From the NCBI RefSeq assembly GCF_900188335.1, contig NZ_FZOY01000008.1:186001-250000 (forward strand): a stretch of DNA of 64,000 bases. The letters are read 5' to 3'. This document shows, one piece after another, positions 40,542-57,963 of the stretch; the first letter of the stretch is position 1; every line of letters begins with the position of its first letter. The position numbers and the translations under genes were made by a program. The DNA is from Tropicimonas sediminicola. GTDB lineage: Bacteria > Pseudomonadota > Alphaproteobacteria > Rhodobacterales > Rhodobacteraceae. Below the pieces are notes generated by a model, which worked only from the letters and a program-made list of their open reading frames with translations, was not told the DNA's origin and made no database searches.

Positions 40542-41693
40542 TCAGCTCTTCATCTCGTCCCAGAAGCTCTTCACCTTCGAGAAGAAGGTGGTGGAGTGCG
40601 GATTGTTCTCGGCGCTCAACTCGTCGAACTCGCGCAGGAGCTCCTTCTGGCGCGAGGTGAGGTTCACGGGCGTCTCGACCAGCAGCTCGATGAACATGTC
40701 GCCGGTGGCGCCGCCACGCAGCGCCGGCATCCCCTTGCCGCGCAGGCGCATCTGCTTGCCGGTCTGCGATCCGGCCGGGACCTTCACGCGGCTGCGACCG
40801 CCGTCGATCGTCGGCACCTCGATCTCGCCGCCGAGCGCCGCGCTCGCGACGCTGACGGGGACCTGGCAGAACAGGTGATGCGCGTCGCGCTTGAACAGGT
40901 CGTGCTCGGTCACCTCGATGAAGATGTAGAGATCGCCCGAGGGGCCGCCGCGCGTGCCCGCGTCGCCTTCGCCGGCAAGCCGGATCCGGGTGCCCGTCTC
41001 GACGCCGGCCGGGATGTTGACCGACAACGAGCGTTCCTTCTCGGTGCGGCCGCTGCCCTGGCAGGTCTGGCAGGGGTTCTTGATGATCTGGCCGAGGCCG
41101 CTGCAGGTCGGGCAGGTGCGCTCGACGGTGAAGAAGCCCTGCTGGGCCCGCACCTTGCCCATGCCGGAACAGGTCGGGCAGGAAACCGGCTCGGCGCCGC
41201 CCTCGGCACCTGTGCCGGAACAGGCGCTGCAGCCGACCGAGGTCGGCACGTTGATCGTTTTCTGGACGCCGGAATAGGCCTCTTCCAGGGTCACGCGCAG
41301 GTTGTAGCGCAGGTCGGAGCCGCGCGCCGCGCGCTGCCGGCCGCCACCGCCGCGCTGGCCACCCATGAAGTCGCCGAAGAGGTCGTCGAACACGTCCGAG
41401 AAGGCGGAGGCGAAATCGCCCTGCTGGTGGAAACCGCCGCGCGGACCGCCGCCGCCACCCATGCCGCCTTCGAAAGCGGCGTGGCCGAAGCGGTCGTAGG
41501 CGGCCTTCTTGTCGGGATCTTTCAGGACGTCATAGGCCTCGTTCACTTCCTTGAACTGGGCTTCGGCGTCCGGCTTGTGGGAGTTGCTGTCCGGGTGGAG
41601 CTCGCGGGCTTTCCGGCGGTAGGCCTTCTTGATGTCCGCATCCGAGGCACCCCGCGCAACACCCAGAACGTCGTAATAATCACGTTTTGCCAT
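40542..41693 (-). CDS. dnaJ: Chaperone DnaJ
   Basis: The 383-residue co-chaperone has a J domain with the HPD triad ([12 protein letters not shown]), a Gly/Phe-rich linker (about 75-105), four CxxCxGxG zinc repeats ([32 protein letters not shown]; about 145-210) and the two C-terminal substrate-binding domains. It delivers clients to DnaK and stimulates its ATPase. It follows dnaK after 74 bases in the same direction and should share its heat-shock promoter. Confidence 0.97.
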
Positions 41694-41767
41694 CGATCAT
41701 CCTCTTGCCCCCGACATACGAGGCCGGCCCGGTTTCCCGGACCGGCCCCCGGAGGTATCGGTCGCGC

Positions 41768-43681
41768 TTAGCGCTTGTCGTCGCCGAGATCCTCGAAGTC
41801 GGCATCCACGATGTCCTCGTCGACACCGTGCGGCTCGTCATCGCCCTCGGGCGCTGCTTCGCCGGCCTTCTCCTGCTCGGCCTTGTAGATGGCCTCGCCA
41901 AGCTTCATCGCGGCTTCGGTCAGGTTCTGGATGCCGGACTTGATCTTGCCGAGATCGGTCCCTTCCAGCGCCTCTTCGAGCGGGCCCATGGCCAGTTCGA
42001 TCGCCTCGACGGTCGAGGGGTCGACCTTGTCGGAGTGCTCGGAGAGCGACTTCTTGGTCGAGTGGAGCAGGCTCTCGCCCTGGTTCTTGGCCTCGACCAG
42101 CTCCTTCTTCTCCTTGTCGGCCTCGGCGTTTGCCTCGGCGTCCTTGACCATCTGGTCGATCTCGTCGTCCGACAGACCGCCCGACGCCTGGATCGTGATG
42201 TTCTGCTCCTTGCCGGTGCCCTTGTCCTTGGCGGAGACCGACACGATGCCGTTGGCATCGATGTCGAAGGTCACCTCGATCTGCGGCATGCCGCGCGGTG
42301 CCGGCGGGATGTCCTCGAGGTTGAACTGGCCGAGCAGCTTGTTGTCGGCCGCCATCTCGCGCTCGCCCTGGAACACCCGGATCGTCACGGCGTTCTGGTT
42401 GTCCTCGGCGGTGGAGAAGACCTGGCCCTTCTTGGTCGGGATCGTGGTGTTGCGGTCGATCAGGCGGGTGAAGACGCCACCGAGCGTCTCGATGCCGAGC
42501 GACAGCGGGGTCACGTCGAGCAGGACCACGTCCTTCACGTCACCCTGAAGCACGCCGGCCTGGATGGCGGCGCCAGCGGCGACCACCTCGTCGGGGTTCA
42601 CACCCTTGTGCGGCTCCTTGCCGAAGAACTTGGTCACTTCCTCGACGACCTTGGGCATGCGGGTCATGCCGCCCACGAGCACCACCTCGTCGATCTCGTT
42701 CACCGAGATACCGGCATCCTTGAGCGCGGCCTGGCAGGGCTTGATCGACTTCTTGATCAGGTCGCCAACAAGGCTTTCCAGCTTGGCGCGGGTCAGCTTC
42801 ATGACCATGTGAAGCGGCGTGCCGCCGTTCGGGTCCATCGAGATGAACGGCTGGTTGATCTCGGTCTGCTGGCTGGAGGAAAGCTCGATCTTGGCCTTCT
42901 CGGCCGCTTCCTTCAGACGCTGCAGCGCCATCTTGTCCTTGGTCAGGTCGACGCCGTGCTCTTTCTTGAACTCGTCGGCCAGGTACTGGACGATCCGCAT
43001 GTCGAAATCTTCACCGCCGAGGAAGGTGTCGCCGTTGGTGGACTTCACCTCGAACAGGCCTTCGTCGATCTCGAGGATCGTGACGTCGAACGTGCCGCCG
43101 CCGAGGTCGTAGACGGCGATCGTCTTGGTCTCTTCCTTGTCGAGGCCATAGGCGAGGGCGGCCGCGGTCGGCTCGTTGATGATCCGCAGCACCTCGAGAC
43201 CGGCGATCTTGCCGGCGTCCTTGGTGGCCTGACGCTGGGCGTCGTTGAAATACGCCGGGACGGTGATGACCGCCTGCTCGACCTTCTCGCCGAGGTAGGA
43301 CTCGGCGGTTTCCTTCATCTTCTGCAGGATGAAGGCGGAAATCTGCGAAGGCGAATACTTCTCGCCGCGGGCCTCGACCCAGGCGTCGCCGTTGCCGCCG
43401 TCCACGATCTTGTAGGGGACGATCTTGCGGTCCTTGGCGACCGCGGGGTCATCCTCGCGGCGGCCGATCAGGCGCTTCACGGCGAAGATGGTGTTCTCGG
43501 GGTTGGTGACGGCCTGCCGCTTGGCGGGCTGACCGACGAGACGTTCACTCTCGGTGAAGGCGACAACCGACGGGGTCGTCCGTGCACCTTCGGCGTTCTC
43601 GATCACGCGGGGCTGCGACCCGTCCATGATGGCGACGCAGCTGTTCGTCGTACCGAGGTCGATACCGATGACTTTGGCCAT
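41768..43681 (-). CDS. dnaK: Chaperone DnaK (Hsp70)
   Basis: The 637-residue Hsp70 opens [21 protein letters not shown], with the ATPase domain to about residue 385 ([36 protein letters not shown]), the linker [13 protein letters not shown]-type block, the substrate-binding beta domain and lid, and the acidic tail ending [10 protein letters not shown]. It folds and protects cytosolic proteins with DnaJ and GrpE; grpE is not in the window. A near-perfect heat-shock promoter lies 105-136 bases upstream. Confidence 0.98.
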
Positions 43682-43785
43682 ATGCTTTCTACCTCTCTTG
43701 GCGATGTTGCGGGGCTCGGGCCCTCTGAGGCTCCCGTGCCCCTATCCCAGTTTTTCCGGGTGGCTGCCCGGACCTTGCATCCCGG

Positions 43786-43817
43786 CGTATATAGGAGTGG
43801 AGTTTTGGCCCTGCAAG
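43786..43817 (-). promoter_or_regulatory. Heat-shock (sigma-32 type) promoter of dnaK
   Basis: On the minus strand CTTG (43814-43817) is followed by an 18-base spacer and CCTATATACG (43795-43786). This fits the alphaproteobacterial RpoH consensus CTTG-N17/18-CYTATNTNNG at every fixed position. Transcription would start near 43780, leaving about 100 bases of leader before dnaK. Confidence 0.85.
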
Positions 43818-43848
43818 CGGGGATGGGCCATCGATAGGGGTGCAAACC

Positions 43849-44489: not shown

Positions 44490-45311
44490 TCACCGCTTGG
44501 CGTGCCAGCTCAGCGAGGCGTTCTTGCGGGTGTAGGATTCGCCCATCAGCCCCAGAAACAGCAACCCGACGCTCAGCCAGAACGGATAGGCGATGTTGGA
44601 GTAATGCGGGTTGTAGTTGATGAACACGAAGCCGCGGCACTGGTCGATGGTATGGAACAGCGGGTTCCAGGTGAAGAAGGCCAGCATGTAGCTCGGTAGC
44701 TGGTTGGCCACGAACATCTTGCCCGAGGCGATCATGTTGGCCCGGGAATAGACGTTGGTGATGACACTGACGAAGCCCGGGAACCAGGGTTTGATCGACA
44801 GGAAGATCATCCCGATCGACACGCCCGAGAACCACGACAGCAGCACCATGCCCATGGCGCCGGCCGGCTGGTGGATGTGCACCGGGTTGAAGCCCACGTG
44901 ATAGACGGTGAGCACCACAAGCATCGACAGGATCTGGATGTAGAGCGAGCCGAGCGCCGCCGCCGAGATCGCGACGATGGTGTTCATCGGCGCGTGCTTC
45001 ATCATCGCCGAGGCCGGGCCTTCGGACATGACCACCGCGCTCAACGCCTTGGTGTGGGTCATGAACAGGAAGACCCCGGACATGATGTAGAGCATGAAGT
45101 CGCCCCGGATCGAGGCGCCGCGCCAGCCGAGCAGGGTGAACATCAGGTAGAAGGCCATCACGAAGATGACCGTCTGCATCATGTTCATAATCAGGCCGAT
45201 CAGCGCGTTGCCGTGGTCCTTGCGCAGGTGCCGGACGGTCGCATGGTAGATCAGCCCGGCGAGCCGAAGCGCCGAGGCGGTCTGCGATCGTGGTTCGGTG
45301 GCCTGGAACAT
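44490..45311 (-). CDS. ABC-2 type permease, polysaccharide-export like
   Basis: A 273-residue inner-membrane protein with six hydrophobic segments and no ATP-binding motif, resembling KpsM/Wzm/TagG permeases that export capsule, O-antigen or teichoic-acid chains. A cytosolic N-terminal tail (about 30 residues) precedes the first helix and FLFMTHTKALSAVV and NPLFHTIDQCRGFVF resemble segments of that family. Such permeases need a separate ATPase (KpsT/Wzt); none is encoded beside it. It is divergent from cysQ and the sugar-nucleotide genes, which fits a role in glycan export. Confidence 0.82.
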   Translation of the reverse strand: MFQATEPRSQTASALRLAGLIYHATVRHLRKDHGNALIGLIMNMMQTVIFVMAFYLMFTLLGWRGASIRGDFMLYIMSGVFLFMTHTKALSAVVMSEGPASAMMKHAPMNTIVAISAAALGSLYIQILSMLVVLTVYHVGFNPVHIHQPAGAMGMVLLSWFSGVSIGMIFLSIKPWFPGFVSVITNVYSRANMIASGKMFVANQLPSYMLAFFTWNPLFHTIDQCRGFVFINYNPHYSNIAYPFWLSVGLLFLGLMGESYTRKNASLSWHAKR

Positions 45312-45457
45312 TCGGGTGGGCGCGCCGCTCTTGTGACGTTCTGCATGACTTTCTGGCGGGGAAATCTTGCTGTTCCCTTGATGGGTGACGATAAGGGGCG
45401 CGACACGTCATTGCAAAGCCTACGCCCGTCGCACGGCGCATTCCGAGGAGAGAGAGC

Positions 45458-46258
45458 ATGGATTATGATCGCCTGACCACAGTCATCCGGCGCCTGGCGC
45501 TGGAGGCCGGCGACAAGATCATGGAGATCTACAACGCCGACGATTTCGAGGTCCGTGCGAAATCGGACGACAGCCCGGTGACCGCCGCCGACGAGGCCGC
45601 CGACGCGCTGATCGCCGCCGGCCTTGCCGAGGCCTTCCCCGACGTCCTGGTCGTGACCGAGGAGCAATCCGCCTCCCACGCCGAGAGCGCCGACAGCTTC
45701 CTGATCGTCGACCCGCTCGACGGCACCAAGGAGTTCGTCCAGCGCCGCGGCGATTTCACCGTGAACATCGCCTACGTGGAAAAGGGCGTTCCGGTGCGCG
45801 GCGTGGTCTATGCCCCGGCCAAGGGGCGGCTCTTCTACACCGACGCCAGCGGCGCCTCCGTCGAGGAGACCGGCGATTTCGCCAAGGACCAGGTCGGACC
45901 GGTCAAGCCGATCAAGGTGACCGCGCCCGACAACGCCGCGCTGATGGTCGTGGCCTCCAAGTCGCATCGCGACCAGGCGACGGACGATTACATCGCGCGC
46001 TACGCCGTGAAGGACATGACCTCGGCCGGATCCTCGCTGAAGTTCTGCCTGGTCGCGGCCGGCGAGGCCGATCTCTATCCCCGCCTCGGACGGACGATGG
46101 AATGGGACACCGCCGCCGCCGACGCGGTGCTGCGCGGGGCCGGTGGCAAGATGGTCCGCTTCGATGACCATTCGGAGTTCACCTATGGCAAGCCGGGCTA
46201 CGAGAACCCGTTCTTCATCGCCTACGCGCCGGGCGTGGAGCTGAAGCCAGCAGCATGA
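45458..46258 (+). CDS. cysQ: 3'(2'),5'-bisphosphate nucleotidase CysQ
   Basis: CysQ hydrolyses 3'-phosphoadenosine 5'-phosphate (PAP), the by-product of PAPS-using sulfotransferases and PAPS reductase, to AMP and phosphate. The 266-residue protein belongs to the inositol monophosphatase fold: VTEEQS (metal glutamates at about 68-69), DPLDGTKEF (D85, D88) and the late EWDTAAADAVLRGAG motif are all present. Its 3' end overlaps the kdsB-like gene by 4 bases. Neighbouring sulfotransferase genes make PAP disposal its likely job here, since no sulfate-assimilation gene is next to it. Confidence 0.93.
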   Translation: MDYDRLTTVIRRLALEAGDKIMEIYNADDFEVRAKSDDSPVTAADEAADALIAAGLAEAFPDVLVVTEEQSASHAESADSFLIVDPLDGTKEFVQRRGDFTVNIAYVEKGVPVRGVVYAPAKGRLFYTDASGASVEETGDFAKDQVGPVKPIKVTAPDNAALMVVASKSHRDQATDDYIARYAVKDMTSAGSSLKFCLVAAGEADLYPRLGRTMEWDTAAADAVLRGAGGKMVRFDDHSEFTYGKPGYENPFFIAYAPGVELKPAA

Positions 46259-47055
46259 GCGTCCTGATCTCCATCCCCGCCCGCTACGCCTCGCACCGCT
46301 ATCCGGGCAAGCCGCTCGTGCCGCTCAAGGGCGCCAGCGGCCAGTCCCGCACCCTGATCCGGCGCAGCTGGGAAGCCGCGATGGCGGTCGAGGGCGTGGA
46401 CCGGGTGGTGGTTGCGACCGACGACAGTCGCATCCGGGACGAGGCCGAAAGCTTCGGCGCGGAGGTCGTGATGACCTCCTCGGCCTGCTCCAACGGCACC
46501 GAGCGCTGCGCCGAGGCCCATGCCGCGATCGGCGGCGGCTACGAGATCGTGGTGAACCTGCAGGGCGACGCCCCGCTCACCCCCGCCTGGTTCGTCAGCG
46601 ATCTCGTCGAGGGCCTGCGCGCCGCGCCGGACGCCGAGATCGCGACGCCGGTTCTGCGCTGCGACGGACGGGCGCTGGCGACGCTCAAGGCCGACCGCGC
46701 CGAGGGGCGCGTCGGCGGCACGACCGCCGTTTTCGACCGGAACAACCGGGCGCTCTATTTCTCCAAGGAGGTCGTGCCCTACACGGCCACGATCTACGCC
46801 CCCGAGGCGGAGACCCCGGTATTTCACCACGTCGGCGTCTATGCCTACCGCGCCGATGCCCTCGCGAGCTACGCCGAGTGGCCGCACGGTCCGCTAGAAC
46901 GGCTCGAAGGCCTGGAGCAGCTCAGGTTCCTCGAGAACGGCCGGCACGTTCTGTGCGTCGAGGTAGAATCGCGTGGCCGACTTTTTTGGGAACTAAACAA
47001 CCCGCAAGACGTTATTCGGCTGGAAGAGATGATGGCCGAGATGGGTGTTGAGTGA
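46255..47055 (+). CDS. KdsB-type CMP-sugar synthetase
   Basis: A 266-residue nucleotidyltransferase of the KdsB family, which activates Kdo or a related acidic sugar with CTP. It has the nucleotide-binding start ISIPARYASHRYPGKPL, then NGTERCAEA and NLQGDAPLTP. In canonical KdsB the last is QGDEP, so the change to QGDAP and a rather different C-terminal half suggest a paralogue for capsule or a modified Kdo rather than the lipid A-core enzyme; that is inference. ATGA overlap with cysQ couples the two genes. Confidence 0.82.
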   Translation: MSVLISIPARYASHRYPGKPLVPLKGASGQSRTLIRRSWEAAMAVEGVDRVVVATDDSRIRDEAESFGAEVVMTSSACSNGTERCAEAHAAIGGGYEIVVNLQGDAPLTPAWFVSDLVEGLRAAPDAEIATPVLRCDGRALATLKADRAEGRVGGTTAVFDRNNRALYFSKEVVPYTATIYAPEAETPVFHHVGVYAYRADALASYAEWPHGPLERLEGLEQLRFLENGRHVLCVEVESRGRLFWELNNPQDVIRLEEMMAEMGVE

Positions 47056-47111
47056 TCGGCTTGCCCGACGAGCAACACTCCGCTGGCGCATTGTCTACGG
47101 ATTTGGCAGAC

Positions 47112-47145
47112 TGTTGCCGCAATGGAGCGAATGTTGCCGCAATGG
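47112..47145. promoter_or_regulatory. Tandem operator candidates upstream of galU
   Basis: The 14-base sequence TGTTGCCGCAATGG occurs twice, at 47112-47125 and 47132-47145, exactly 20 bases apart. Each copy contains the perfect dyad TTGC-C-GCAA. Two identical palindromes on the same face of the helix, in the 255-base gap before galU, are typical of a dimeric regulator bound in tandem. The regulator is not known to me; TTGC/GCAA dyads resemble sites reported for PhaR-type regulators. Confidence 0.5.
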
Positions 47146-47310
47146 TGTGTTATCAACGCAAGCAACACGAATGTGCCTTGGATTTGGACACGACATGCCG
47201 GGGGCCCTTCGGTAAACTTCACGACAGTTTCACGGTGCACGATTATGACGATGTCTTACCGAGTACGGCAGGTCGTGTTCTGATGCCGACAAACGAAAGG
47301 ATTTAGGTTT

Positions 47311-48204
47311 ATGCAACGCAAGGTCATCAAGGCAGTGTTCCCCGTCGCAGGTCTGGGAACGCGGTTTCTGCCGGCAACCAAATCGGTTCCGAAGGAGATC
47401 ATGACCCTGGTTGACCGTCCGCTGATCCAATACGCGATCGACGAAGCGCGGGCGGCTGGTATCAAGGAATTCATTTTTGTCACGTCGCGCGGCAAGAGCG
47501 CGCTCGAGGATTATTTCGACACGGCCCCCGAACTCGAAGCCTCCCTTCGCAAGAAGGGCAAGGACGACCTGCTCGAGGTTCTCAAGCAGACCAACATGGA
47601 AAGCGGCGCGATCGCCTACATCCGTCAGCACCGCGCGCTCGGCCTCGGCCACGCCGTCTGGTGTGCGCGCCGCCTGATCGCCAACGAGCCCTTCGCGGTC
47701 ATCCTGCCCGATGACGTGATCGCGGGCGAGAAGGGCTGTCTTCAGCAGATGGTCGAGGCCTACGAGGAGACCGGCGGCTGCATGGTTGCGGCGATGGAAG
47801 TGCCGCATGACAAGGCGAAGGCCTATGGCATTCTCGATGTCGAGAAAGAGATGGGCCAGCAGGTCAAGGTGAAGGGCATGGTCGAGAAGCCCGCGCCGGG
47901 CACCGAGCCGTCCAACCTCGCCGTGATCGGACGCTACATCCTGACGCCGCAGATCATGCGCAACCTGAACCGCATGCGCTCCGGCACCGGCGGGGAGATC
48001 CAGCTCACCGACGCCATCGCCGACGAGATCTCGGCCGGCCGCGACGTTTATGGCTACCGCTTCCGCGGTCAGCGCTTCGACTGCGGTTCCAAGGCGGGCT
48101 TCCTTCAGGCGACGGTGGCCTTCGGCCTCGCGCGCGACGATCTGCGCGACGAATTCTCCGACTACCTGAGCGAACTGGTGGCAATGCGCAACGCTGCCCA
48201 GTAA
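47311..48204 (+). CDS. galU: UTP-glucose-1-phosphate uridylyltransferase
   Basis: GalU makes UDP-glucose. The 297-residue enzyme opens with KAVFPVAGLGTRFLPATKSVPKEIM (nucleotide-binding loop and catalytic lysine) and has LGLGHAVWCARRLI, ILPDDVIAGEKG, GMVEKPAPG and FDCGSKAGFLQATVAFGL, all diagnostic of bacterial GalU. It starts 36 bases upstream of galE, giving UDP-glucose then UDP-galactose for the transferases that follow. The tandem palindromes about 170 bases upstream may control it. Confidence 0.97.
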   Translation: MQRKVIKAVFPVAGLGTRFLPATKSVPKEIMTLVDRPLIQYAIDEARAAGIKEFIFVTSRGKSALEDYFDTAPELEASLRKKGKDDLLEVLKQTNMESGAIAYIRQHRALGLGHAVWCARRLIANEPFAVILPDDVIAGEKGCLQQMVEAYEETGGCMVAAMEVPHDKAKAYGILDVEKEMGQQVKVKGMVEKPAPGTEPSNLAVIGRYILTPQIMRNLNRMRSGTGGEIQLTDAIADEISAGRDVYGYRFRGQRFDCGSKAGFLQATVAFGLARDDLRDEFSDYLSELVAMRNAAQ

Positions 48205-48240
48205 AAGGGCGGCGTAAGACACAGCAGACTGGATCACCAG

Positions 48241-49224
48241 ATGACCAAGATCCTTGTCACGGGGGGTGCGGGCTATATCGGCTCGCACGCCTGCAAGGTG
48301 CTTGCCCGCGAGGGCTACACGCCAATCACGTTCGACAACATCTCCACCGGCTGGGAAGAAGCGGTGAAGTTCGGGCCGCTCGAGAAGGGCGATCTGCTCG
48401 ACCGGGCGCGGCTCGACGAGGTGTTCGCCAAGCACAAGCCCGACGCGATCATGCATTTCGCCGCCCTGAGCCAGGTCGGCGAGTCGATGCAGGTGCCGGG
48501 CTGGTACTGGCGCTCCAACGTGGTCGGGGCCGCCAACCTCTGCGAAGCGGCGGTCGAGGCGGGCTGCAAGAAGTTCATCTTCTCCTCGACCTGCGCGACC
48601 TATGGCGACCAGGACGGCGTGGTTCTCGACGAGCATTCGCTCCAGAAACCGATCAACGCTTATGGGGCCTCCAAGCGCGCGATCGAGGACATCCTCGCCA
48701 ATTTCGACGACAGCTTCGGCCTGAAGAACGTGATCTTCCGCTACTTCAACGTGGCTGGCGGCGACGAGGAGGCCGAGGTCGGTGAGTTCCACCGGCCAGA
48801 GACGCACCTGATCCCGCTGGTGCTCGACGCCATCGACGGCAAGCGCGACAAGCTGACGATCTACGGCACCGATTACAAGACGCCCGACGGCACCTGCATC
48901 CGCGATTACGTGCACGTGATGGACCTCGTGGAAGCGCATGTGCTGGGCCTGAAATGGCTGGAGAAGGGCAAGGACAGCCGCGCCTTCAACCTGGGCACGG
49001 GCAGTGGATTTTCCGTGCGCGAGGTGATGAACGCGGCCGGGCAGGTAACCAACCGTCCGGTGCCCTACGACGAGGGTCCGCGGCGCGCCGGGGATGCCAC
49101 CCGTCTCGTCTCGGGGTCGAGCCGCGCCATCGATGAGCTTGGCTGGAAGCCGCGCCGCTCGACCATGCCGCGGATGATCGAGGATGCCTGGCGCTGGCAT
49201 CAGACCGGCCACTACGAGAAGTGA
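48241..49224 (+). CDS. galE: UDP-glucose 4-epimerase
   Basis: GalE interconverts UDP-glucose and UDP-galactose with bound NAD. The 327-residue short-chain dehydrogenase-type protein has the NAD loop TGGAGYIGSHACKVL, the SSTCATYG motif, the catalytic YGASK and FRYFNVAGG, and the UDP-binding RDYVHVMDLVEAH block. Its stop overlaps the start of the first glycosyltransferase, coupling UDP-galactose supply to glycan assembly. Confidence 0.96.
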   Translation: MTKILVTGGAGYIGSHACKVLAREGYTPITFDNISTGWEEAVKFGPLEKGDLLDRARLDEVFAKHKPDAIMHFAALSQVGESMQVPGWYWRSNVVGAANLCEAAVEAGCKKFIFSSTCATYGDQDGVVLDEHSLQKPINAYGASKRAIEDILANFDDSFGLKNVIFRYFNVAGGDEEAEVGEFHRPETHLIPLVLDAIDGKRDKLTIYGTDYKTPDGTCIRDYVHVMDLVEAHVLGLKWLEKGKDSRAFNLGTGSGFSVREVMNAAGQVTNRPVPYDEGPRRAGDATRLVSGSSRAIDELGWKPRRSTMPRMIEDAWRWHQTGHYEK

Positions 49225-50261
49225 GCCGCATGACGGAGGCGCCGGTCGCGCCTCCGCTCTCTCCCTGGATGGCGACGCGGATGCGCTGGAAGCGGCGCAG
49301 GCTGCTCTGGCGGGCGTTTCTCAGCCGCCATGTGCTGCGCCCGGTCGTGGACCGGACGTCGGAGATTGCCGCAGGGGACGTGCTCGCCTTCACCACCCTG
49401 CGAAACGAGATCGCGCGGCTTCCCTATTTTCTCGACCACCACCGCCGCCTTGGGGTGGCGCATTTCCTGATCGTCGACAACGGAAGCACCGACACTGGCC
49501 CCGTATTCCTCGCGGATCAGCCTGACGTGTCGCTCTGGCAGACCTCCGCCAGCTATCGAGAGGCCCGCTTCGGAATGGACTGGCTCGGCTGGCTGCTGAT
49601 GCGCCACGGCGCCGGCCATTGGTGCCTGACCGTGGATGCCGACGAGTTGCTGATCTATCCGCAGTGGCAGACCCGGCCGCTCCCCGCGCTGTGCGCGCGT
49701 CTGGAGCAGACCGGTGCACCGGCGCTCGGGGCGCTGATGCTCGATCTTTATCCTCGAGAGCCGCTGGGGACGGGCCTCGCGCCCGCCGATCCGCTGGAGG
49801 TGCTGCGCGGGTTCGATCCCGGCCCCTATCGCGCCCGCCGCCGCGCCCGGGACGGGGCGCTGATCGTGCAGGGGGGCACGCGCGAGCGGGTGTTTTTTGC
49901 CGACACGCCGGAGCGCGGACCAACGCTCAACAAGCTGCCACTGGTCAAGTGGCGACGCGGCCACGCCTATGCCAATGCCTCCCATTCGATGCTGCCGCCC
50001 GCGTTGAACCGCGCCTGGGACGGGCCCGGGGACACGCGGCTTTCGGGTGTGCTGCTGCACACGAAATTCCTGCCCGGGATCGTCGAACGGTCGGTCGAGG
50101 AACGAACGCGCGGCCAGCATTTCGGTGAGCCTGCCGCCTTCGACGCCTATTACGGCGCGATCGCTGCACGGCCGACGATCTGGTCGGAGGAAACGCTGAC
50201 GCTCGACGGCTGGGAGCAGCTCTGCGCCCTCGGGCTGATGGCGGACGGCGGCTGGCGCTGA
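49221..50261 (+). CDS. Glycosyltransferase A (GT2/GT92-like)
   Basis: A 346-residue soluble transferase of the GT-A fold. FTTLRNEIARLPYFLDHHRRLGVAHFLIVDNGSTD (about 57-91) is the donor-binding half and VDADEL (138-143) the DxD-type metal motif. Both match the Glyco_tranf_2_4 group often called glycosyltransferase family 2. GTG 49221 overlaps galE; ATG 49230 is an alternative. The next protein (50477) is a close paralogue. The sugar and acceptor are unknown; UDP-galactose is suggested by galE. Confidence 0.82.
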   Translation: MSRMTEAPVAPPLSPWMATRMRWKRRRLLWRAFLSRHVLRPVVDRTSEIAAGDVLAFTTLRNEIARLPYFLDHHRRLGVAHFLIVDNGSTDTGPVFLADQPDVSLWQTSASYREARFGMDWLGWLLMRHGAGHWCLTVDADELLIYPQWQTRPLPALCARLEQTGAPALGALMLDLYPREPLGTGLAPADPLEVLRGFDPGPYRARRRARDGALIVQGGTRERVFFADTPERGPTLNKLPLVKWRRGHAYANASHSMLPPALNRAWDGPGDTRLSGVLLHTKFLPGIVERSVEERTRGQHFGEPAAFDAYYGAIAARPTIWSEETLTLDGWEQLCALGLMADGGWR

Positions 50262-50476
50262 AAAGCGCCTCCGAGGGGGCCGGGCGAATCACTTGCAGTT
50301 TACCCCGGACGCGCCATTGCCTAACGTGAACCAAAGAAGCAGTCAGGGCACAGCAGGCAGACCTTGTTTCCGACACGATCCAGGCAGATGACACCCCGCG
50401 CCGATGGCCCGAGGAAAGGCCGCGTTAACCTCGCGGGTGCATGGTCGCGCCGCAACCTTCGAAAAGGGGCGGGGCG

Positions 50477-51487
50477 GTGAGCGTGATCGAGTCCTATCGG
50501 CTGCGGCTGCGGCGCAAGCGGTACCGGATCCGGGCCTTCCGGAAGCGGCGGGAGCTGACCGTGGTCGCCGACCGGACCCGCGCGATCGGCGAGGAGGATG
50601 TGCTCGCCTTCACCACGCTGCGCAACGAGCGGGTGCGGCTGCCATATTTCCTCGATTATTACCGTCGGCAAGGGGTCGGCCATTTCCTGATGGTCGACAA
50701 CGGCTCGACCGATGGCTCCAGCCAGTTCCTCGCCGATCAGGCGGATGTTTCCCTCTGGACCACGCAGGCCAGCTACAAGCGTGCCCGCTACGGGGTGGAC
50801 TGGCTGAACTGGCTGCAATGGCAGCACGGGCACGGGCACTGGACGCTGGTTGTCGATCCGGACGAGTTCTTCATCTATCCGTTCTGCGACACCCGGCCGA
50901 TCCAGGCGCTGACCGGCTGGCTGGATACCTGCGGGCTGCGCAGTTTCTCGGCGATGCTGGTGGACATGTATCCCAAGGGTCCGATCGACGCCGAGGCCTA
51001 CCGCGAAGGGCAGGATCCGTTCGAGATCGCCTCGTGGTTCGACAGCGGCAACTACTTCATCTCGCGCAACCCGCTCTACCACAACCTGTGGATCCAGGGC
51101 GGGCCGCGCGCGCGGGTGTTCTTTGCCGACCAGCCCTCCGCCGCGCCCTCGCTCAACAAGATCCCGCTGGTGAAATGGCGGCGCGAGTACGTCTACGCGC
51201 AATCGACGCATATGCTGCTGCCGCGCGGGCTGAACCGGGTCTATGACGACCACGGCGGGGAAAAGACGTCGGGCGCGCTGCTTCATGCCAAGTTCCTCAA
51301 CACGCTGGCGGGCAAGGCAGAAGAGGAGCTCGCGCGCGGCGAGCATTACGCGGGCGGCCGGGAATACCGGGCCTATCGCGACGGGATGGCCAACCGGACG
51401 GATCTCTGGACCAAGTGGTCGGAGCGCTACATCAACTGGCGCCAGCTCGAGATCCTCGGCCTGATGTCCAAGGGGAACTGGGCATGA
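50477..51487 (+). CDS. Glycosyltransferase B (paralogue of A)
   Basis: A 336-residue protein sharing the whole layout of the preceding one: FTTLRNERVRLPYFLDYYRRQGVGHFLMVDNGSTDGSS, then VVDPDEFFIYP with the metal-binding acid pair (127-132), and RVFFADQPSAAPSLNKIPLVKWRR near the end, which aligns with RVFFADTPERGPTLNKLPLVKWRR of A. The pair arose by duplication and probably adds two sugars in sequence. GTG 50477 is used; upstream is a 215-base gap, so a separate promoter is possible. Its stop overlaps the next gene by 4 bases. Confidence 0.82.
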   Translation: MSVIESYRLRLRRKRYRIRAFRKRRELTVVADRTRAIGEEDVLAFTTLRNERVRLPYFLDYYRRQGVGHFLMVDNGSTDGSSQFLADQADVSLWTTQASYKRARYGVDWLNWLQWQHGHGHWTLVVDPDEFFIYPFCDTRPIQALTGWLDTCGLRSFSAMLVDMYPKGPIDAEAYREGQDPFEIASWFDSGNYFISRNPLYHNLWIQGGPRARVFFADQPSAAPSLNKIPLVKWRREYVYAQSTHMLLPRGLNRVYDDHGGEKTSGALLHAKFLNTLAGKAEEELARGEHYAGGREYRAYRDGMANRTDLWTKWSERYINWRQLEILGLMSKGNWA

Positions 51488-53184
51488 GCGTGGGCTTCAT
51501 CCTGCTGGTGCACACCGCGCTCGACCGGGCGGCGCAGGTCGCGCGGCACTGGGCCGGCAGCGGCTGCCCGGTGGTGATCCACGCCGACCGCAACGTGCCG
51601 GAGGAGCGGTTCGACGCCTTCCGCGCCGCGCTGGCGGGGAACCCGAACATCCGTTTCGTGGAGCCGCGGCGGCGCTGCGAATGGGGCACCTGGGGCATCG
51701 TCGGCGCGACGATCGACGCCAGCGCGCTGATGCTCAAGAGCTTCCCGCAGGTCGACCATGTCTATCTGGCCTCCGGCTCCTGCCTGCCGTTGCGCCCGGT
51801 GCCGGAGTTGCGGGCCTATCTCGCCGAGCGCCCGCGCACGGATTTCATCGAGTCGGCGACCATCGACGATGTCGACTGGTCCAAGGGCGGGTTCGACCAC
51901 GAGCGTTTCACCCTGCGCTTTCCCTTCGCGTTCAAGACGCAGCGCGGGTTGTTCGACCGGTTCGTCACCCTCCAGCGCGGTCTCGGGATGAAACGGAGCC
52001 TGCCGGCCGGGCTGGTTCCGCACCTGGGCTCGCAATGGTGGTGCCTGACGCGGCCCACGCTGGAGGCGATCCTCGGCGATCCTCGGCGCGGCGAATACGA
52101 ACGGTTCTTCCGGAGCGTCTGGATCCCCGACGAAAGCTATTTCCAAAGCCTCGTGCGGCTGCACGCGAACCGTGTGGAAAGCCGGTCTCTGACGCTCTCC
52201 AAGTTCGACTTCCAGGGCAAGCCGCACACGTTCTACGACGATCACCTCCAACTGCTGCGCCGATCCGACTGTTTCGTCGCGCGCAAGATCTGGCCGCAGG
52301 CAGATCGGCTCTACTCGAGCCTGCTCTCGAACGACCCGCAGATCACCAAGAACGCGGAGCCCAACCCGGGCAAGATCGACCGGCTTTTCACCCATGCGGT
52401 GGAACGGCGGCTGCGCGGCCGCCCGGGACTCTACATGCAGAGCCGGTTCCCCCTGAGCGACCGCGACAACGGCAAATCCTGCGGGCCCTATTCGGTCTTC
52501 GAGGGCTTCTCGGACCTTTTCGAGCAGTTCGAAAGCTGGCTCAGCAAGACCACCGGCTGCCGGGTGCATGGCCATCTCTATGCGCCCGACCGGGCCCATT
52601 TCGCCGGCGGCGAGAAGGTTTACAACGGCTGCCTGCCCGACAGCGCGGCGCTGCGGGACTACAACCCCTGCGCCTTCCTGACCAACCTGACCTGGTCGAC
52701 TCGGGGCGAGCGGCAGTGCTTCATGTTCGGGCCGGCGGACAACCAGTATCCCACCGATTTCATGACCGGCGATCCCCATGCGCAGATCTCGGTGATCACC
52801 GGCGCCTGGGCGATCCGGCTGTTCCGGCGCAAGGCGACCTCGGAGGAGGTGCGCAAGGAAGCTGCCCGGCTCCAGCGGATCGAGCAGGCCCATGTGGAGC
52901 GGTTGCGCGCCCATTGGGCGAAAGCGCGGATCCGGATCTGGACGCTGGCGGAATTCATCGAGGCGCCGATGGACCATCTGCAGGAGATCCTCGACGAGGT
53001 CTCGCCGCGTGGCGCGCGACGGCTGACCGAGGCGCCGCGCCTCACTGACCTGACCGGGTTCGGCCGGTTCCTGCAGGAGCTGAAGAACGAGGGGATGAAC
53101 CTGCATGTCGCCGGCGATTTCCCCGCCGGATTCGATCCGGCGCCCCTGCAGCCGGACACCCAGCGGCGTTACGTGGTGAAATAG
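51484..53184 (+). CDS. GT14-type beta-1,6-N-acetylglucosaminyltransferase-like protein with extra C-terminal domain
   Basis: A 566-residue protein. The N-terminal part (1 to about 255) resembles the core-2/I-branching (GT14) fold: FILLVHTALDRAAQVARHW, YLASGSCLPLRP, HLGSQWWCLTRPTLEAIL and IPDESYFQSLV are recognisable. The other 300 residues form a second domain of the kind listed only as domains of unknown function in related proteobacteria, with VYNGCLPDSAAL and a helical end. No signal or membrane segment is visible, so it acts in the cytosol. It is coupled to glycosyltransferase B by ATGA and ends 3 bases before the sulfotransferase gene. Confidence 0.8.
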   Translation: MSVGFILLVHTALDRAAQVARHWAGSGCPVVIHADRNVPEERFDAFRAALAGNPNIRFVEPRRRCEWGTWGIVGATIDASALMLKSFPQVDHVYLASGSCLPLRPVPELRAYLAERPRTDFIESATIDDVDWSKGGFDHERFTLRFPFAFKTQRGLFDRFVTLQRGLGMKRSLPAGLVPHLGSQWWCLTRPTLEAILGDPRRGEYERFFRSVWIPDESYFQSLVRLHANRVESRSLTLSKFDFQGKPHTFYDDHLQLLRRSDCFVARKIWPQADRLYSSLLSNDPQITKNAEPNPGKIDRLFTHAVERRLRGRPGLYMQSRFPLSDRDNGKSCGPYSVFEGFSDLFEQFESWLSKTTGCRVHGHLYAPDRAHFAGGEKVYNGCLPDSAALRDYNPCAFLTNLTWSTRGERQCFMFGPADNQYPTDFMTGDPHAQISVITGAWAIRLFRRKATSEEVRKEAARLQRIEQAHVERLRAHWAKARIRIWTLAEFIEAPMDHLQEILDEVSPRGARRLTEAPRLTDLTGFGRFLQELKNEGMNLHVAGDFPAGFDPAPLQPDTQRRYVVK

Positions 53185-53187
53185 GCG

Positions 53188-54621
53188 ATGGCGCGGTTCG
53201 ACGGTTTCGTCCTGTTTGCCGAGATGCGCACGGGATCGAACTTCCTGGAGGAGTCGCTCAATCTCTTTCCCGGGCTGACCTGCCACGGCGAGGCGTTCAA
53301 CCCGGGCTTCGTCGGTCAGCACAACTGGCCGGAGCTGTTCGGGATGGACCTCGAGGCCCGCAAGGCCGACCCGCTGGAGTTGCTGAGGCGGATCCGGGAG
53401 GGCACCGAAGAGTTGGGTGGCTTCCGCTTCTTCCACGACCACGATCCGCGCGTGCTCGACGCGGTGTTGCCCGATCCGCGCATCGCCAAGGTCCTGCTCT
53501 CGCGCAATCCGCTCGAAGCCTACGTCTCGCGCAAGATCGCCTCCGAGACCGGTCAGTGGCGGCTGACCAACGATGCGCATCGCAAGGTTGCGAGGATCCG
53601 GTTCGACGCGGCCGAATTCGAGGCGGTGCTGGCACGCCAGACCGCCTTTCGAGACCGTGTCCGGCGGGCGCTACAGGTGTCCGGGCAGACCGCGTTCGAA
53701 TTGAGCTACGAGGAGACCGGGCAGCTCGACGTGGTCAACGGGCTCGCAGCTTTCCTCGGGGTGACGCACCGGCTGAACGGGCTTTCGAACCGACTCAAGC
53801 GGCAGAACCCCGCGCCGCTCTCCGACAAGGTGGAGAACTTCGCGGAGATGCAGGCGGCCCTGTCGGGCATGGAGCTTCTGGCGATGGCGCGGGGCGGCGA
53901 GGGCGAGCCGAAGCAGGGCGCTTCGGTGCCGACGTGGCGCGCCTGCGTTCAGGCACCGCTGCTTTTCCAGCCGGTCAAGGGCGGCCCGACCGAGGCGGTC
54001 CTGGCGTGGATGGCGCGGCTCGACGGCGTGGAGGGGCCGGAGGCGCTGGCCTCGGGGTTCAACCAGAAGACGCTTCGTCAGTGGAAGAACCAGCACAAGA
54101 ACGCCCGCGGCTTCGCCATCGTCAGCCATCCTGTCGCACGGGCGCATGGCGTCTTCGAACGCTACATCCTCGCGACCGGACCAGGCAGCTTTGCCGCGAT
54201 CCGCAATCACCTGAGGGAGAACGACGGGCTGCCGATCCCCGAGGCAGCGCCGGACGAAAGCTACGATCCGGCCGATCACCGCGCGGCCTTTCTCGGGTTT
54301 CTGAAGTTCCTGCGACGCAACCTTGCCGGCCAGACCCGCCTGCGCACCGATCCGGCGTTCTCGACCCAGGCGAGCCTGGTGCAGTCGATGGCCGAGATCC
54401 TGCCGCCGGACATGGTGATCCGGGACGACCAGCTCAAGCTCGGCCTCGGCCAGCTCTGCCAGCAGATCGGGTTGGAGCGGATGCCGCCGCCACCCTCGCT
54501 CGCCGGGTTCGGCGGCGCGCGGCTGGCGCAGATTCATGACGACGAGATCGAGGCCGCCGCGCGCGCTGCCTACAATCGCGACTACATGAGCTTCGGATTC
54601 CGGGGGTGGTCGCAGGGCTGA
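53188..54621 (+). CDS. Two-domain sulfotransferase
   Basis: A 477-residue protein. The N-terminal domain opens LFAEMRTGSNFLEESLN (about 9-25), the 5'-phosphosulfate loop of NodH/Stf0-type sulfotransferases, and LSRNPLEAYVSRKIA (about 111-125) is the 3'-phosphate motif. The C-terminal half (about 235-477), with VSHPVARAHGVFERYI and DPAFSTQASLVQSMAEILPPDMVIRDDQL, resembles a second, different carbohydrate sulfotransferase. It would transfer sulfate from PAPS to a glycan in the cytosol. It begins 3 bases after the GT14 gene, ending the glycan operon. Confidence 0.8.
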   Translation: MARFDGFVLFAEMRTGSNFLEESLNLFPGLTCHGEAFNPGFVGQHNWPELFGMDLEARKADPLELLRRIREGTEELGGFRFFHDHDPRVLDAVLPDPRIAKVLLSRNPLEAYVSRKIASETGQWRLTNDAHRKVARIRFDAAEFEAVLARQTAFRDRVRRALQVSGQTAFELSYEETGQLDVVNGLAAFLGVTHRLNGLSNRLKRQNPAPLSDKVENFAEMQAALSGMELLAMARGGEGEPKQGASVPTWRACVQAPLLFQPVKGGPTEAVLAWMARLDGVEGPEALASGFNQKTLRQWKNQHKNARGFAIVSHPVARAHGVFERYILATGPGSFAAIRNHLRENDGLPIPEAAPDESYDPADHRAAFLGFLKFLRRNLAGQTRLRTDPAFSTQASLVQSMAEILPPDMVIRDDQLKLGLGQLCQQIGLERMPPPPSLAGFGGARLAQIHDDEIEAAARAAYNRDYMSFGFRGWSQG

Positions 54622-54636: not shown

Positions 54637-55101
54637 TCAGGCGGCCTGCGAGGGACGGCCTTCGGTCAGTACCGTGTGGAGCGTCGCCGGGTTGTCATTG
54701 GCGCGGAGCTTCTCGCAGACCGCGGCGTCGCGCATGGTCCGGGAAATCAGCGCCAGTGCCTTGAGGTGGTCCACGCCCGAGCTCTCGGGTGCGAACAGCG
54801 CGAAGACGAGGTCGACCGGCTGGCGGTCGACCGCGCCGAATTCGAGCGGCCGTTCGAGGCGGAAGAACACGCCCCGGACGGCCTTGGCATCCGTGACCCG
54901 GGCGTGGGGCAGCGCGATACCGCTGCCCACACCGGTCGGACCGAGGCTTTCCCGGTCGAGCAGGGCCTCAAGCGCCGCATCGCCGTCAAGACCGTAGGAG
55001 GCTTCCGCCGCCTCCGCGAGGCGTTGGAACAGCCGCTTCTTGCTGCTCGCCTCGGAAATCACCTTGACGGCGTCGGGCTTCAGAATGCTCGACAGGTTCA
55101 T
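54637..55101 (-). CDS. ptsN: Nitrogen-PTS enzyme IIA (PtsN)
   Basis: The 154-residue PtsN is the last phosphate acceptor of the regulatory nitrogen PTS. Its phospho-histidine is H66 in the motif GIALPHARV, preceded by RESLGPTGVGSG. Through its phosphorylation state PtsN modulates potassium transport and carbon/nitrogen balance in other proteobacteria. It follows hpf after 37 bases, in the usual lptB-hpf-ptsN order but without rpoN. Its stop faces the sulfotransferase stop 15 bases away. Confidence 0.95.
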   Translation of the reverse strand: MNLSSILKPDAVKVISEASSKKRLFQRLAEAAEASYGLDGDAALEALLDRESLGPTGVGSGIALPHARVTDAKAVRGVFFRLERPLEFGAVDRQPVDLVFALFAPESSGVDHLKALALISRTMRDAAVCEKLRANDNPATLHTVLTEGRPSQAA

Positions 55102-55138
55102 ACTTCCTCCAGTCGCCCCGGGTTTCAGTCAGGCCGGT

Positions 55139-55717
55139 TCAGGCCTTGTCCGAGGGATCGATCCATCCGATGTTGCCATCGTCGCGGCGGTACACCACGT
55201 TCAGGCTTGTTTTTCCTTCCGGATGGAAGATCAGAACCGGCGCTCCGGCCAGCTCCATCTGCATCACCGCCTCGCCAACGGACAGGCTCGGGATGCGGGT
55301 TTCCATCTCCGCGATGATCATGGGCTGGAGCGTATCAGGTTCCTGCTCATCTGCCCCGTCATCCGATGCGGCGAGGATATACGAGGCCGCGCCGAAGACT
55401 TCAACCGGCTCCTTGCGATCCCGATAGTGATCCTTCAGGCGGCGCTTGTAGCGACGGAGTTGCTTCTCCATCTTCTCGCATGTGTCGTCGAAGGCTGCGT
55501 AGATCTCGGGCGCACGGCCGCTGGCGGAAGCGTTGAGACCGGTCGACAGGTGGACCGTCGCCTCGCAGATGAATTCGTGGCCGCGCTTCGAAAAGATCAC
55601 CTGGGCGTCGGTCGGACGCTCCGCATACTTGGCAATCGCTTCGCCAAGCTCGGTTTTGACATGGTTGGTGAGGGATTCCCCAATGTCGATCTGGTGACCG
55701 CTGATCTGGTAGCGCAT
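55139..55717 (-). CDS. hpf: Long-form ribosome hibernation-promoting factor
   Basis: The 192-residue protein has the N-terminal ribosome-binding domain (RYQISGHQIDIGESLTNHVKTEL to about residue 105) and the C-terminal dimerisation domain of long HPF (about 135-190, SLSVGEAVMQMELAGAPVLIFHPEGKTSLNVVYRRDDGNIGWI), which joins two 70S ribosomes into inactive 100S particles in stationary phase. The start at 55717 follows AGGGAGG. It probably shares a transcript with ptsN. Confidence 0.95.
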   Translation of the reverse strand: MRYQISGHQIDIGESLTNHVKTELGEAIAKYAERPTDAQVIFSKRGHEFICEATVHLSTGLNASASGRAPEIYAAFDDTCEKMEKQLRRYKRRLKDHYRDRKEPVEVFGAASYILAASDDGADEQEPDTLQPMIIAEMETRIPSLSVGEAVMQMELAGAPVLIFHPEGKTSLNVVYRRDDGNIGWIDPSDKA

Positions 55718-56057
55718 TTCGCCTCCCTGAGTTGAAGTTGAGGGTTCGCCCACCTAGCGGAGTGCGGACCCGGTTGAAAAGGGCAAAACGTTTGTCGGAA
55801 AGGCGATGCCAACACCACGCCGTTGTCTCGGGGCGGTCGAGACGGCGTCGATGTTGTGATCAGGGCTACTAGCTCCGGCATTTCCCGTATTTGGCGATGG
55901 TTCGACATGCGATGTCAACGCCCGCGTCCTTGTGTGCCCGCACCGGCAGGCCCTGGAATTGCAGCGCGCGGGGGGCGGTTTCGTCAATGATCCGTATCAA
56001 ATTCAACGCGGTGACCCCGGGTAGGTTCCCAATCCGGTGCCGCCTGTTGCAGGCAGG
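55718..56057. other. 340-base gene-free spacer between lptB and hpf
   Basis: No gene with family character is present on either strand. It should contain the hpf-ptsN promoter. A hairpin GTCTCG-GGGCGGT-CGAGAC (55825-55843) is visible, extendable by G-U pairs if transcribed left to right, but without a T-run. No rpoN remnant is recognisable. Confidence 0.6.
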
Positions 56058-56822
56058 TCAGCCGATGCGGAAGTTCTGCCCGAGATAGACCCGGCGGACG
56101 TTTTCGTCCCGGACGACATCCTCGGCAGTGCCGCTCATCAGCACCTGGCCGTCGTGCAGAATGTAGGCGCGGTCGACGATCTCCAGCGTCTCGCGGACGT
56201 TGTGATCGGTGATCAGCACGCCGATGCCGCGGTTCTTGAGATCCATCACGAGGTGGCGGATGTCGCCGACGGAGATCGGGTCCACGCCGGCGAAAGGCTC
56301 GTCGAGCAGCAGGTATTTCGGCTCGGCCGCGAGGCAGCGCGCGATCTCGACCCGCCGCCGTTCGCCGCCGGAGAGAGACAGCGCCGAAGCCCGGCGGAGA
56401 TGCTCGATGGCGAACTCGGAGAGCAGGTCTTCGAGCCTCTCGCGGCGCTTGTGCCGGTCCTTCACGGCGATTTCGAGGATCGCCATGATGTTGTCCTCCA
56501 CCGACATGCCGCGGAAGATCGAGACCTCCTGAGGCAGGTAGCCGATGCCGAACTTGGCGCGGCGATACATCGGCAGGGTGGTCACGTCGCGGCCGTCGAT
56601 CTGCACCAGGCCGGATTCGGGCGTGACCAGCCCGGCGATGGAATAGAAGCACGTGGTCTTGCCGGAACCGTTGGGGCCGAGCAGGGCCACGACCTCGCCG
56701 CGCTGCAACTCCAGCGTGACGTCATGGATCACTGGACGGCGGCGATAGCTCTTGCGCAGCTGCACGACCTGCAGACCGCGCTCGCCGGGCGTCACCGTCA
56801 ATCCGCGCTGTGGGCGGTTCAT
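56058..56822 (-). CDS. lptB: LPS export ATP-binding protein LptB
   Basis: LptB powers extraction of LPS from the inner membrane with LptFG. The 254-residue ATPase has Walker [11 protein letters not shown]-loop [18 protein letters not shown] (typical of LptB), signature [16 protein letters not shown], Walker [16 protein letters not shown] and H-loop [10 protein letters not shown], ending [10 protein letters not shown]. Its start overlaps the lptA stop by 4 bases, so lptC, lptA and lptB form one operon. LptF and LptG are not in this window. Confidence 0.97.
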
Positions 56823-57346
56823 TGGCCGTCGCCCTGCGCGCCCTGGGCGTCCTGCGACTGGAACACCACCCGCACGCGGCCCTCCATGACGCCCGTGCCG
56901 GTGTCGAGGTTGACCGTCAGCTTCTCGCCGGCCATCGCATTCTCGCCCTGGGTCAGGACGACATCGCCGGTCATCACCACCTCGCCGGTCTCGAGCGTGT
57001 AGACGGCTTCCTGCCCTTCGGCGGCCTCGGCCCCGTTGAACAGGGTCACCCCGCCGGAGGCATGGAGGCGCTTGACCTCGGTCTCGCCGGTGGCGCTCTC
57101 GCCGTATTCGACATCGACCACGGCGCCGGTCAGACGCATCTCGCCCTGTCCGACGACGACATTGCCGGTGAACTTGGCACGTCCGTCGGCCTGGCTCACG
57201 TCGAGCTGGTCGGCGGTGATCTCGACCGGCAGGGAGCTGTCGTGCTCGGCGCCGCCAAAGCCGATGTTGGCACCCTGCGCGAGGGCGACGGCGGGAAAGA
57301 GGAACGCTGCGGCAAGCAGCAGGGACCGGAGCGACACTGGTAGCAT
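56819..57346 (-). CDS. lptA: Periplasmic LPS-transport protein LptA
   Basis: A 175-residue OstA-domain protein with a Sec signal (residues 1-22, ending VALA-QG), then repeated short beta strands ([35 protein letters not shown]) forming the beta-jellyroll bridge that carries LPS across the periplasm, and a Gln/Gly-rich end. The start at 57346 lies one base after the lptC stop. Confidence 0.93.
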
Positions 57347-57347
57347 C

Positions 57348-57959
57348 CTATTGGTTTCCGGGAACGTATAGCAGCCTGACACCGTCCTTGAAAACCACGG
57401 TCACGCTATCGCGATCCTCGCCGGACTGGGTCACGACCATCCGGCCAGCGTCGATGCTGCCGATGGGTCCGGTGCCGGAGACCGGTCCGGTGGTTTCCAT
57501 GTCGGTCCGGTCGAGCGCGGCGGAGAGCTCGTCGGTGTCGACCTGGTACCCGGTGGAGGTGCTGATGTGGACATTCCCGCGCAACACGGTGCGGGATTCC
57601 GTGGCGTGTACGGTTCCGGCGTCCGATGTCAGGCGGATCGAGCTGTTGTCGCCCGTCTCCATCGTGCCGCTGACCTCGACCGCATCGACGACGCTGGCCT
57701 TGGCGTCGCGTGGCGTTGCGCTGCGGGCATTGAGCGTGATGGCCTTGCCGTCTTCGGTGACGCCGGAGAACTCGGGCCCGTCCACCCGCTGTTCGCTCGC
57801 CATCTGCTCCAGGTCCTGTTCCGAGAACGGCAGAGAGTCGCTGTTGTCCCCGGTGCGTGCGACGAGGAACAGCGACGAGAGCAGGGCGAGCGCCATCAGC
57901 GGCAACAAGACCTTGAGCCATGCCACCACGCGGGAATGGAGGTTGTCGAACGCGGCCAT
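57348..57959 (-). CDS. lptC: LPS export protein LptC
   Basis: A 203-residue bitopic protein: one transmembrane helix (about 13-35, WLKVLLPLMALALLSSLFLVA) and a periplasmic beta-jellyroll (GVTEDGKAITLNARSATPRDA, VHATESRTVLRGNVHISTSTGYQVDTDEL). LptC passes LPS from LptB2FG to LptA. It starts 4 bases from the kdsD stop, so kdsD, lptC, lptA and lptB are likely one unit linking Kdo supply to LPS export. Confidence 0.9.
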   Translation of the reverse strand: MAAFDNLHSRVVAWLKVLLPLMALALLSSLFLVARTGDNSDSLPFSEQDLEQMASEQRVDGPEFSGVTEDGKAITLNARSATPRDAKASVVDAVEVSGTMETGDNSSIRLTSDAGTVHATESRTVLRGNVHISTSTGYQVDTDELSAALDRTDMETTGPVSGTGPIGSIDAGRMVVTQSGEDRDSVTVVFKDGVRLLYVPGNQ

Positions 57960-57963
57960 CGGC

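Follow-up and report, generated by a model that had tools for sequence, protein, structure and literature searches.

The closest described relatives of the locus considered here are capsule pathways that depend on ATP-binding cassette (ABC) transporters. As the available portions of the reports describe it, the Kps pathway of Escherichia coli (group 2 type) has KpsM, KpsT, KpsE, KpsD, KpsC and KpsS proteins together with genes that supply 3-deoxy-D-manno-octulosonic acid (Kdo) (PMC11041684, PMC12220298), and Vibrio sp. KMM 8419 has a sulfated ABC-transporter-dependent capsule of solved structure, with kps export and sulfotransferase genes (PMC11641403, likewise in its available portion). Both Kps machines and sulfated capsules of this type are already known from these sources. 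Here we analyse a stretch of 64,000 nucleotides from the alphaproteobacterium Tropicimonas sediminicola (the window), in which a permease gene, glycosyltransferase genes and a sulfotransferase gene lie with cysQ, kdsB, galU and galE between positions 44490 and 54621. Our results suggest, with a probability of roughly 0.76, that an ABC-transporter-dependent (Kps-type) capsule pathway is split over three loci in this genome, the window holding its permease, chain-building and sulfating part.

The dedicated module in the window consists of a kpsM-like permease, glycosyltransferases that include a GT14-DUF5927 fusion, and a sulfotransferase. The ABC-2 permease gene (44490 to 45311, minus strand) is divergent from the rest, and its product matches VexB at E 1.8e-10 and KpsM at E 1.3e-8. 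On the plus strand are two GT2 genes (Glyco_tranf_2_4, PF13704), one in a variable slot (49221 to 50261) and one in a constant slot (50441 to 51487), followed by the fusion of a GT14 (Branch) domain with DUF5927 (51484 to 53184; PF02485, PF19349), the candidate chain-building enzyme, and by a predicted two-domain sulfotransferase (53188 to 54621) with an Stf0/NodH-like N half and a diverged, Sulfotransfer_2-like C half. The gene identities named in an earlier note on this DNA are borne out by open frames at these coordinates and by profile matches. The note had also found no ATPase and no outer-membrane exporter. This is correct for the window but not for the genome (G000; C numbers denote contigs), which has KpsT-, KpsE-, KpsD-, KpsC- and KpsS-like proteins elsewhere. 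A kpsT-kpsE-kdsA group lies at G000:C14:424998-428137 and a kpsS-kpsD-kpsC-like group at G000:C14:305857-310516, and at neither C14 stretch did comparison with the window's permease or a hydropathy analysis reveal a KpsM-like permease. The parts are thus on contigs C11 and C14, with the two C14 sites about 114 kilobases (kb) apart; in G244, a genome of one contig, they are at 357, 946 and 1151 kb. In stretches hand-picked from the listed matches, kpsT and kpsE are adjacent in 12/12 (kdsA being next in 9) and kpsS, kpsD and kpsC in 8/8.

The C14 KpsE matches TIGR01010 over positions 6-360 of 362 (E 1.3e-60, below cut-off), and the KpsD-like protein matches Poly_export above cut-off and VexA below it (E 2.1e-36). 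PF05159 is matched above cut-off by both the KpsC- and the KpsS-like protein, with three stretches in the KpsC-like frame, and the KpsS-like protein also matches the NCBIfam KpsS profile (E 1.4e-56, below cut-off). As judged by these profiles, predicted KpsE (polysaccharide copolymerase, PCP-3) and KpsD (outer-membrane polysaccharide export, OPX) components are present, as are putative KpsC and KpsS beta-Kdo transferases. The genome also contains a second Kps set (G000:C10:282000-301000) with KpsE, a KpsT-like ATPase, an epimerase and a permease of its own that is 22% identical to the window's permease. The ATPase of this set is 38% identical to the C14 ATPase and matches TagH (1.1e-33) and VexC (7e-21), both below cut-offs.

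The three places are connected by their shared presence and loss over 292 genomes, each with a completeness of 95% or more and all assigned to a single family. Strong and weak matches to the permease, KpsE, KpsC/S and the sulfotransferase were told apart by eye from tables of E-values. A strong permease match (E 5e-67 or better) is present in 282 genomes, a weak one in 4 and none in 6; for the C14-type KpsE the figures are 282 strong (2.4e-115 or better), 5 weak and 5 absent. The 282 genomes are identical in the two cases, and the same ten that are without both are also without the sulfotransferase and without an intact DUF5927. For KpsC/S, all 282 have a strong match (2.4e-42 or better), as do 3 of the ten; of the other seven, 3 have a weak match and 4 have none. 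The co-occurrence has a Fisher p of 9e-19, which assumes independent genomes and is overstated by kinship. The module is therefore common to nearly all sampled members of the family and is occasionally lost as a unit. Three of the losses (g24, g37 and g52) fall in genera in which the other genomes sampled retain the module; there was accordingly more than one loss event. Since the permease, KpsE, the sulfotransferase and DUF5927 are lost together, and KpsC/S nearly so, we infer that they probably belong to one split pathway. It is very improbable that the neighbourhood is only an old conserved order near dnaK and the lpt genes with no shared pathway: cysQ, kdsB, galU and galE do act as genes with wider duties, but the permease, the GT14 module and the unlinked KpsE have one presence pattern.

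The sulfotransferase depends on the module. It has a match in 279 of the 292 genomes, one of which (G198) is weak (8.5e-13) with the gene absent from the locus, leaving 278, and the 13 genomes without a match have DUF5927 absent in 9, as a fragment in 1 and intact in 3. The gene is thus found in 0/10 module-less and 278/282 module-bearing genomes. As the module can occur without the sulfotransferase but the sulfotransferase is confined to genomes with the module, the capsule would be the likeliest substrate of the enzyme. The presence of adenosine 5'-phosphosulfate (APS) kinase, with a sole match in the window's genome on another contig, suggests that 3'-phosphoadenosine 5'-phosphosulfate (PAPS) can be made. 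As a test of co-occurrence APS kinase was set aside as uninformative, being present in 289/292 genomes and not tracking the sulfotransferase.

The order of the genes recurs among relatives. Scanning 315 pattern-matched stretches with the sulfotransferase yielded 284 relatives, and the best 80 of these were retained as loci; two of them carry labels other than Rhodobacteraceae, one from a Cytophagaceae metagenome-assembled genome (MAG; L070) and one from an alphaproteobacterial MAG (L027). The comparison of gene order that the earlier note had proposed largely supports it, as the order is found in most of the 80 loci, which argues that the gene set is beyond chance. GT2, GT14 and sulfotransferase genes are together in 78/80 loci, the constant GT2 being among them, and the remaining two are cut by contig ends. 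The permease, divergent as the note had described, is directly beside cysQ in 59/80. At the locus are also cysQ in 60/80, galU in 67/80, galE in 56/80 and kdsB in 40/80, some loci ending early. The sulfotransferase gene comes next after GT14 in 76/77 loci, at a spacing of -4 to 9 bases. Among the 74 loci with enough flank, the module is followed by ptsN, hpf and lptBAC in 69 and by kdsD in 35.

The earlier note had described the sulfotransferase as having two domains. For the N half this is upheld by its match to the NodH structure 9vki (E 6.5e-11) and by its predicted model (residues 2-240, mean predicted local distance difference test score, pLDDT, 86.4), which resembles Stf0 1tex with Z 12.6 and heparan 3-O-sulfotransferases (3-OST) with Z about 12; the modelled N half has a predicted sulfotransferase fold. 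The roles and spacing of the 5'-phosphosulfate-binding (5'-PSB) loop, the 3'-phosphate-binding (3'-PB) arginine and serine and the catalytic glutamate are known from work on SULT and Stf0 enzymes. R14-T15-G16-S17, E35, R106 and S114 are kept in 46/46 aligned sequences, and the expected cofactor and catalytic residues are, from the alignment, predicted to be present. For the C half the description comes from homologues only. The window's own protein has no Pfam sulfotransferase match (only HtaA, E 0.03, below cut-off); the 46 aligned members, the window's included, match Sulfotransfer_2 in 35 cases, Sulfotransfer_3 in 25 and Sulfotransfer_1 in 23 (E <=0.1). When eight homologues were scanned one by one, the C half matched Sulfotransfer_2 in four, two of these exceeding the cut-off, and three gave no match. 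The structure-search matches are taken up by the N half. Position 313 is an arginine in only 32/46 sequences and a serine in the window's protein, so this half may be non-catalytic.

It is quite unlikely that the locus makes a Kps capsule that is left unsulfated, the sulfotransferase being inactive or having another substrate. The activity is assigned from sequence, the genome has eight further Sulfotransfer_1 matches, and four module-bearing genomes have the rest of the locus in place without this gene. Against this, the sulfotransferase gene almost invariably abuts GT14, its cofactor and catalytic residues are invariant, and the module-less genomes have all lost it. We retain the reading of a split capsule pathway in which the capsule is probably sulfated, and the sulfated-glycan proposal of the earlier note has partial support. 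In another part of the genome (G000:C14:504000-523900) a Poly_export protein and another sulfotransferase match are encoded at a distance of about 5 kb, and this is possibly a further locus for a sulfated polysaccharide.

The GT14-DUF5927 gene most likely starts at the ATG at 51484, giving a predicted product of 566 amino acids and a 4-base overlap with the preceding gene, since its 77 homologues have a median of 565 amino acids and 50/77 have the same overlap, although homologue starts were chosen nearest to the trimmed query, a choice that favours the -4 overlap. Residues 1-287 of the predicted model (mean pLDDT 77) resemble C2GnT (Z 23.1) and xylosyltransferase 1 (Z 20.6), and the structure-search matches are taken up by the GT14 half. 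GT14 enzymes have a catalytic glutamate motif, and P215 D216 E217 is invariant in the 46 aligned sequences; a GT14 fold with this motif is accordingly present in the model. DUF5927 was considered as a hidden sulfotransferase domain and rejected, as local profile comparison was not significant either with the N half of the sulfotransferase (E 0.011, probability 3.8%) or with its C half (E 0.15, probability 0.4%). The two halves of the sulfotransferase compared with each other in the same way gave E 0.0016 and a probability of 16%. These three local comparisons were run without a control, and an all-against-all comparison of DUF5927 and both halves in the global setting matched no two of them. 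In Paracoccus plasmid records (matches H9 and H10), GT14 relatives are annotated as DUF5928 proteins, and GT14 may be fused there to another domain of unknown function; the plasmid search returned no record with a single place covering 80% of either query.

The duplication of the GT2 gene, which the earlier note had pointed out, is real in the window, where the two products are 49% identical over 316 residues, but it is not a general trait (26/73 or 27/72 loci). A GT2 relative occupies the slot ahead of the constant GT2 in 26/73 loci, and other content is present there in 47/73, with the slot gene taken as the longest frame, so that there is at least one miscount (L078, where a GT2 match is present) and one transposase-like frame (L059). 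Forty of the 47 non-GT2 loci are listed, and the three slot genes scanned out of the 47 are all GT4-type. The kdsB-galU interval has room for an extra gene in 19 of the 39 loci holding both, and the two scanned are GT2-type. The chain-building set therefore varies around a constant core.

The remaining genes between the permease and the glycosyltransferases, all on the plus strand, are cysQ (45458 to 46258; TIGR01331), kdsB for cytidine monophosphate (CMP)-Kdo synthetase (46255 to 47055; NF003950), galU for uridine diphosphate (UDP)-glucose supply (47311 to 48204; TIGR01099) and galE for UDP-galactose supply (48241 to 49224; TIGR01179), each above the cut-off of its profile. They are neighbours with wider duties, cysQ and kdsB being shared housekeeping genes, because they recur in module-less genomes and kdsB is the only strong match of its genome (126 bits, the second match having 28.5 bits). 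In the stretches around cysQ in the ten module-less genomes we found cysQ in 10/10, kdsB in 8/10, galU in 7/10, galE in 3/10 and lptC in 4/10; the other stretches do not show lptC, and kdsB, galU, galE or GT2 may lie elsewhere in a genome when missing from its fetched stretch. These stretches have no permease, GT2, GT14 or sulfotransferase gene except for fragments in G075, and for the sulfotransferase, DUF5927 and the permease the absence is from whole-genome searches. As cysQ is kept in all ten, its position beside the sulfotransferase operon, which the earlier note had called functionally coherent, is weak evidence of sulfation, and cysQ was rejected as a marker of it. In G075 (L101), decaying short GT2 and GT14 fragments lie beside intact galE, galU, kdsB and cysQ in a local rearrangement, and in another module-less genome (G085:C32:7997-9300) cysQ adjoins an APS kinase match.

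Sulfotransferases that act on lipopolysaccharide (LPS) are found in rhizobia. It could be argued that the module builds and sulfates part of the LPS, in the core or O-antigen, instead of a separate capsule, as it adjoins kdsB, kdsD and lptCAB and the solved structure closest to the N half bears the name LPS sulfotransferase NodH. We consider this unlikely, since kdsB and lptC are kept in module-less genomes to the extent given above, the unlinked KpsE is gone from all ten of these and KpsC/S is weak or absent in 7/10, and the best named matches of the permease are capsule exporters. In the pathway of a split capsule that we favour, kdsB would serve both LPS and the Kdo linker of the capsule. 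KdsA, KdsD and KdsB would make CMP-Kdo, with which KpsS and KpsC would equip a lipid with a beta-Kdo linker. The chain would then be assembled from UDP-glucose, UDP-galactose and perhaps other sugars by the GT2 enzymes and GT14-DUF5927, and the two-domain sulfotransferase would sulfate it using PAPS. The window's permease, as KpsM, would pair with the distant C14 KpsT and, with KpsE and KpsD, carry the polymer to the surface, while CysQ would clear 3'-phosphoadenosine 5'-phosphate (PAP), as it would for other pathways.

Several observations weigh against this reading. The permease meets no curated cut-off in the profile search, where its best match is VexB and then KpsM; with KpsE, KpsS and the VexA-like KpsD it is far under the NCBIfam curated cut-offs, making these proteins remote relatives, the KpsC-like protein has no NCBIfam match, and the C14 KpsT has only a general ABC_tran match. 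No known polymerase domain was recognised. The window's sulfotransferase C half is without the usual 3'-phosphate arginine. Three genomes (G110, G141 and G227) have strong KpsC/S without the module, with KpsS-like proteins 30-34% identical to that of the window's genome and, in G141, encoded in a tight cluster that includes a different permease, and the three weak KpsC/S matches among the ten still exceed the Pfam cut-off. Four of the 282 module-bearing genomes, G198 and three others, have no sulfotransferase gene between GT14 and ptsN, and these loci keep GT2, GT14, galU, kdsB, cysQ and the permease. The search for DUF5927 covered 15 of the 292 genomes, and for the others its presence is deduced from adjacency to the sulfotransferase in sampled loci. 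The three genomes without an APS kinase match carry the sulfotransferase, 12 of 60-66 candidates having been scored there.

The setting of the module is itself conserved. Convergent to it on the minus strand, and outside it, are ptsN, hpf, lptB, lptA, lptC and kdsD (54637 to 58953), with an RNase D-like gene also on this side, and alkB and dnaK-dnaJ are upstream. A scan for promoters and terminators gave no signal exceeding shuffled sequence. A large frame antisense to dnaK (41687 to 43837, plus strand) scores as NAD-GH (PF10712), presumably a spurious family that mirrors dnaK.

Rhodobacteraceae are among the commonest marine bacterial families. We see even odds that the family has an ancestral, mostly vertically inherited sulfated capsule, made by a three-locus Kps system in which GT14-DUF5927 builds the chain and a glycosyltransferase slot of varying content adjoins a constant core of GT14 and sulfotransferase. 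If so, a whole family dominated by marine members would have a sulfated K-antigen overlooked by searches for a single locus, and this surface polymer, shared and probably sulfated, could affect the binding of phages and gene transfer agents, biofilms, algal association and the cycling of sulfated carbon. Relatives without the sulfotransferase alone and relatives without the whole module are natural controls. The models of a capsule survey generally ask for components in one locus, with exceptions (PMC5542703), a rule of searching that is no part of the mechanism itself; such surveys might miss or undercount split systems of this kind.

A capsule cluster in what is presumably the same bacterial family is the receptor cluster rcc01081-01086 of the Rhodobacter capsulatus gene transfer agent RcGTA. 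A link to it was considered and dropped, as the available part of the report gives the cluster as absent from one strain, 37b4, and lists it with wza-wzb-wzc for export (PMC10218006). In partial listings of the open-access literature we found no paper on the window locus, and in that literature no mention of DUF5927. As far as this literature shows, the three-place layout, the near-universality in the family and the core of GT14-DUF5927 with a two-domain sulfotransferase are new. Stf0 and NodH sulfotransferases resemble the N half and differ in that the enzyme here has a second, diverged sulfotransferase-like half, seen in some homologues. The E. coli Kps genes are, in the portions of the reports available, in a single locus, whereas here they are in three places, with GT14-DUF5927 and the two-domain sulfotransferase in the module, and are present in 282/292 sampled genomes of the family. 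The capsule genes of Vibrio sp. KMM 8419 are described in the available text as one 80-gene cluster that includes cysNDC, is without kpsC and was judged to be horizontally transferred (PMC11641403); here, in contrast, the genes are in three places, a KpsC-like gene is present and the only APS kinase match is on another contig.

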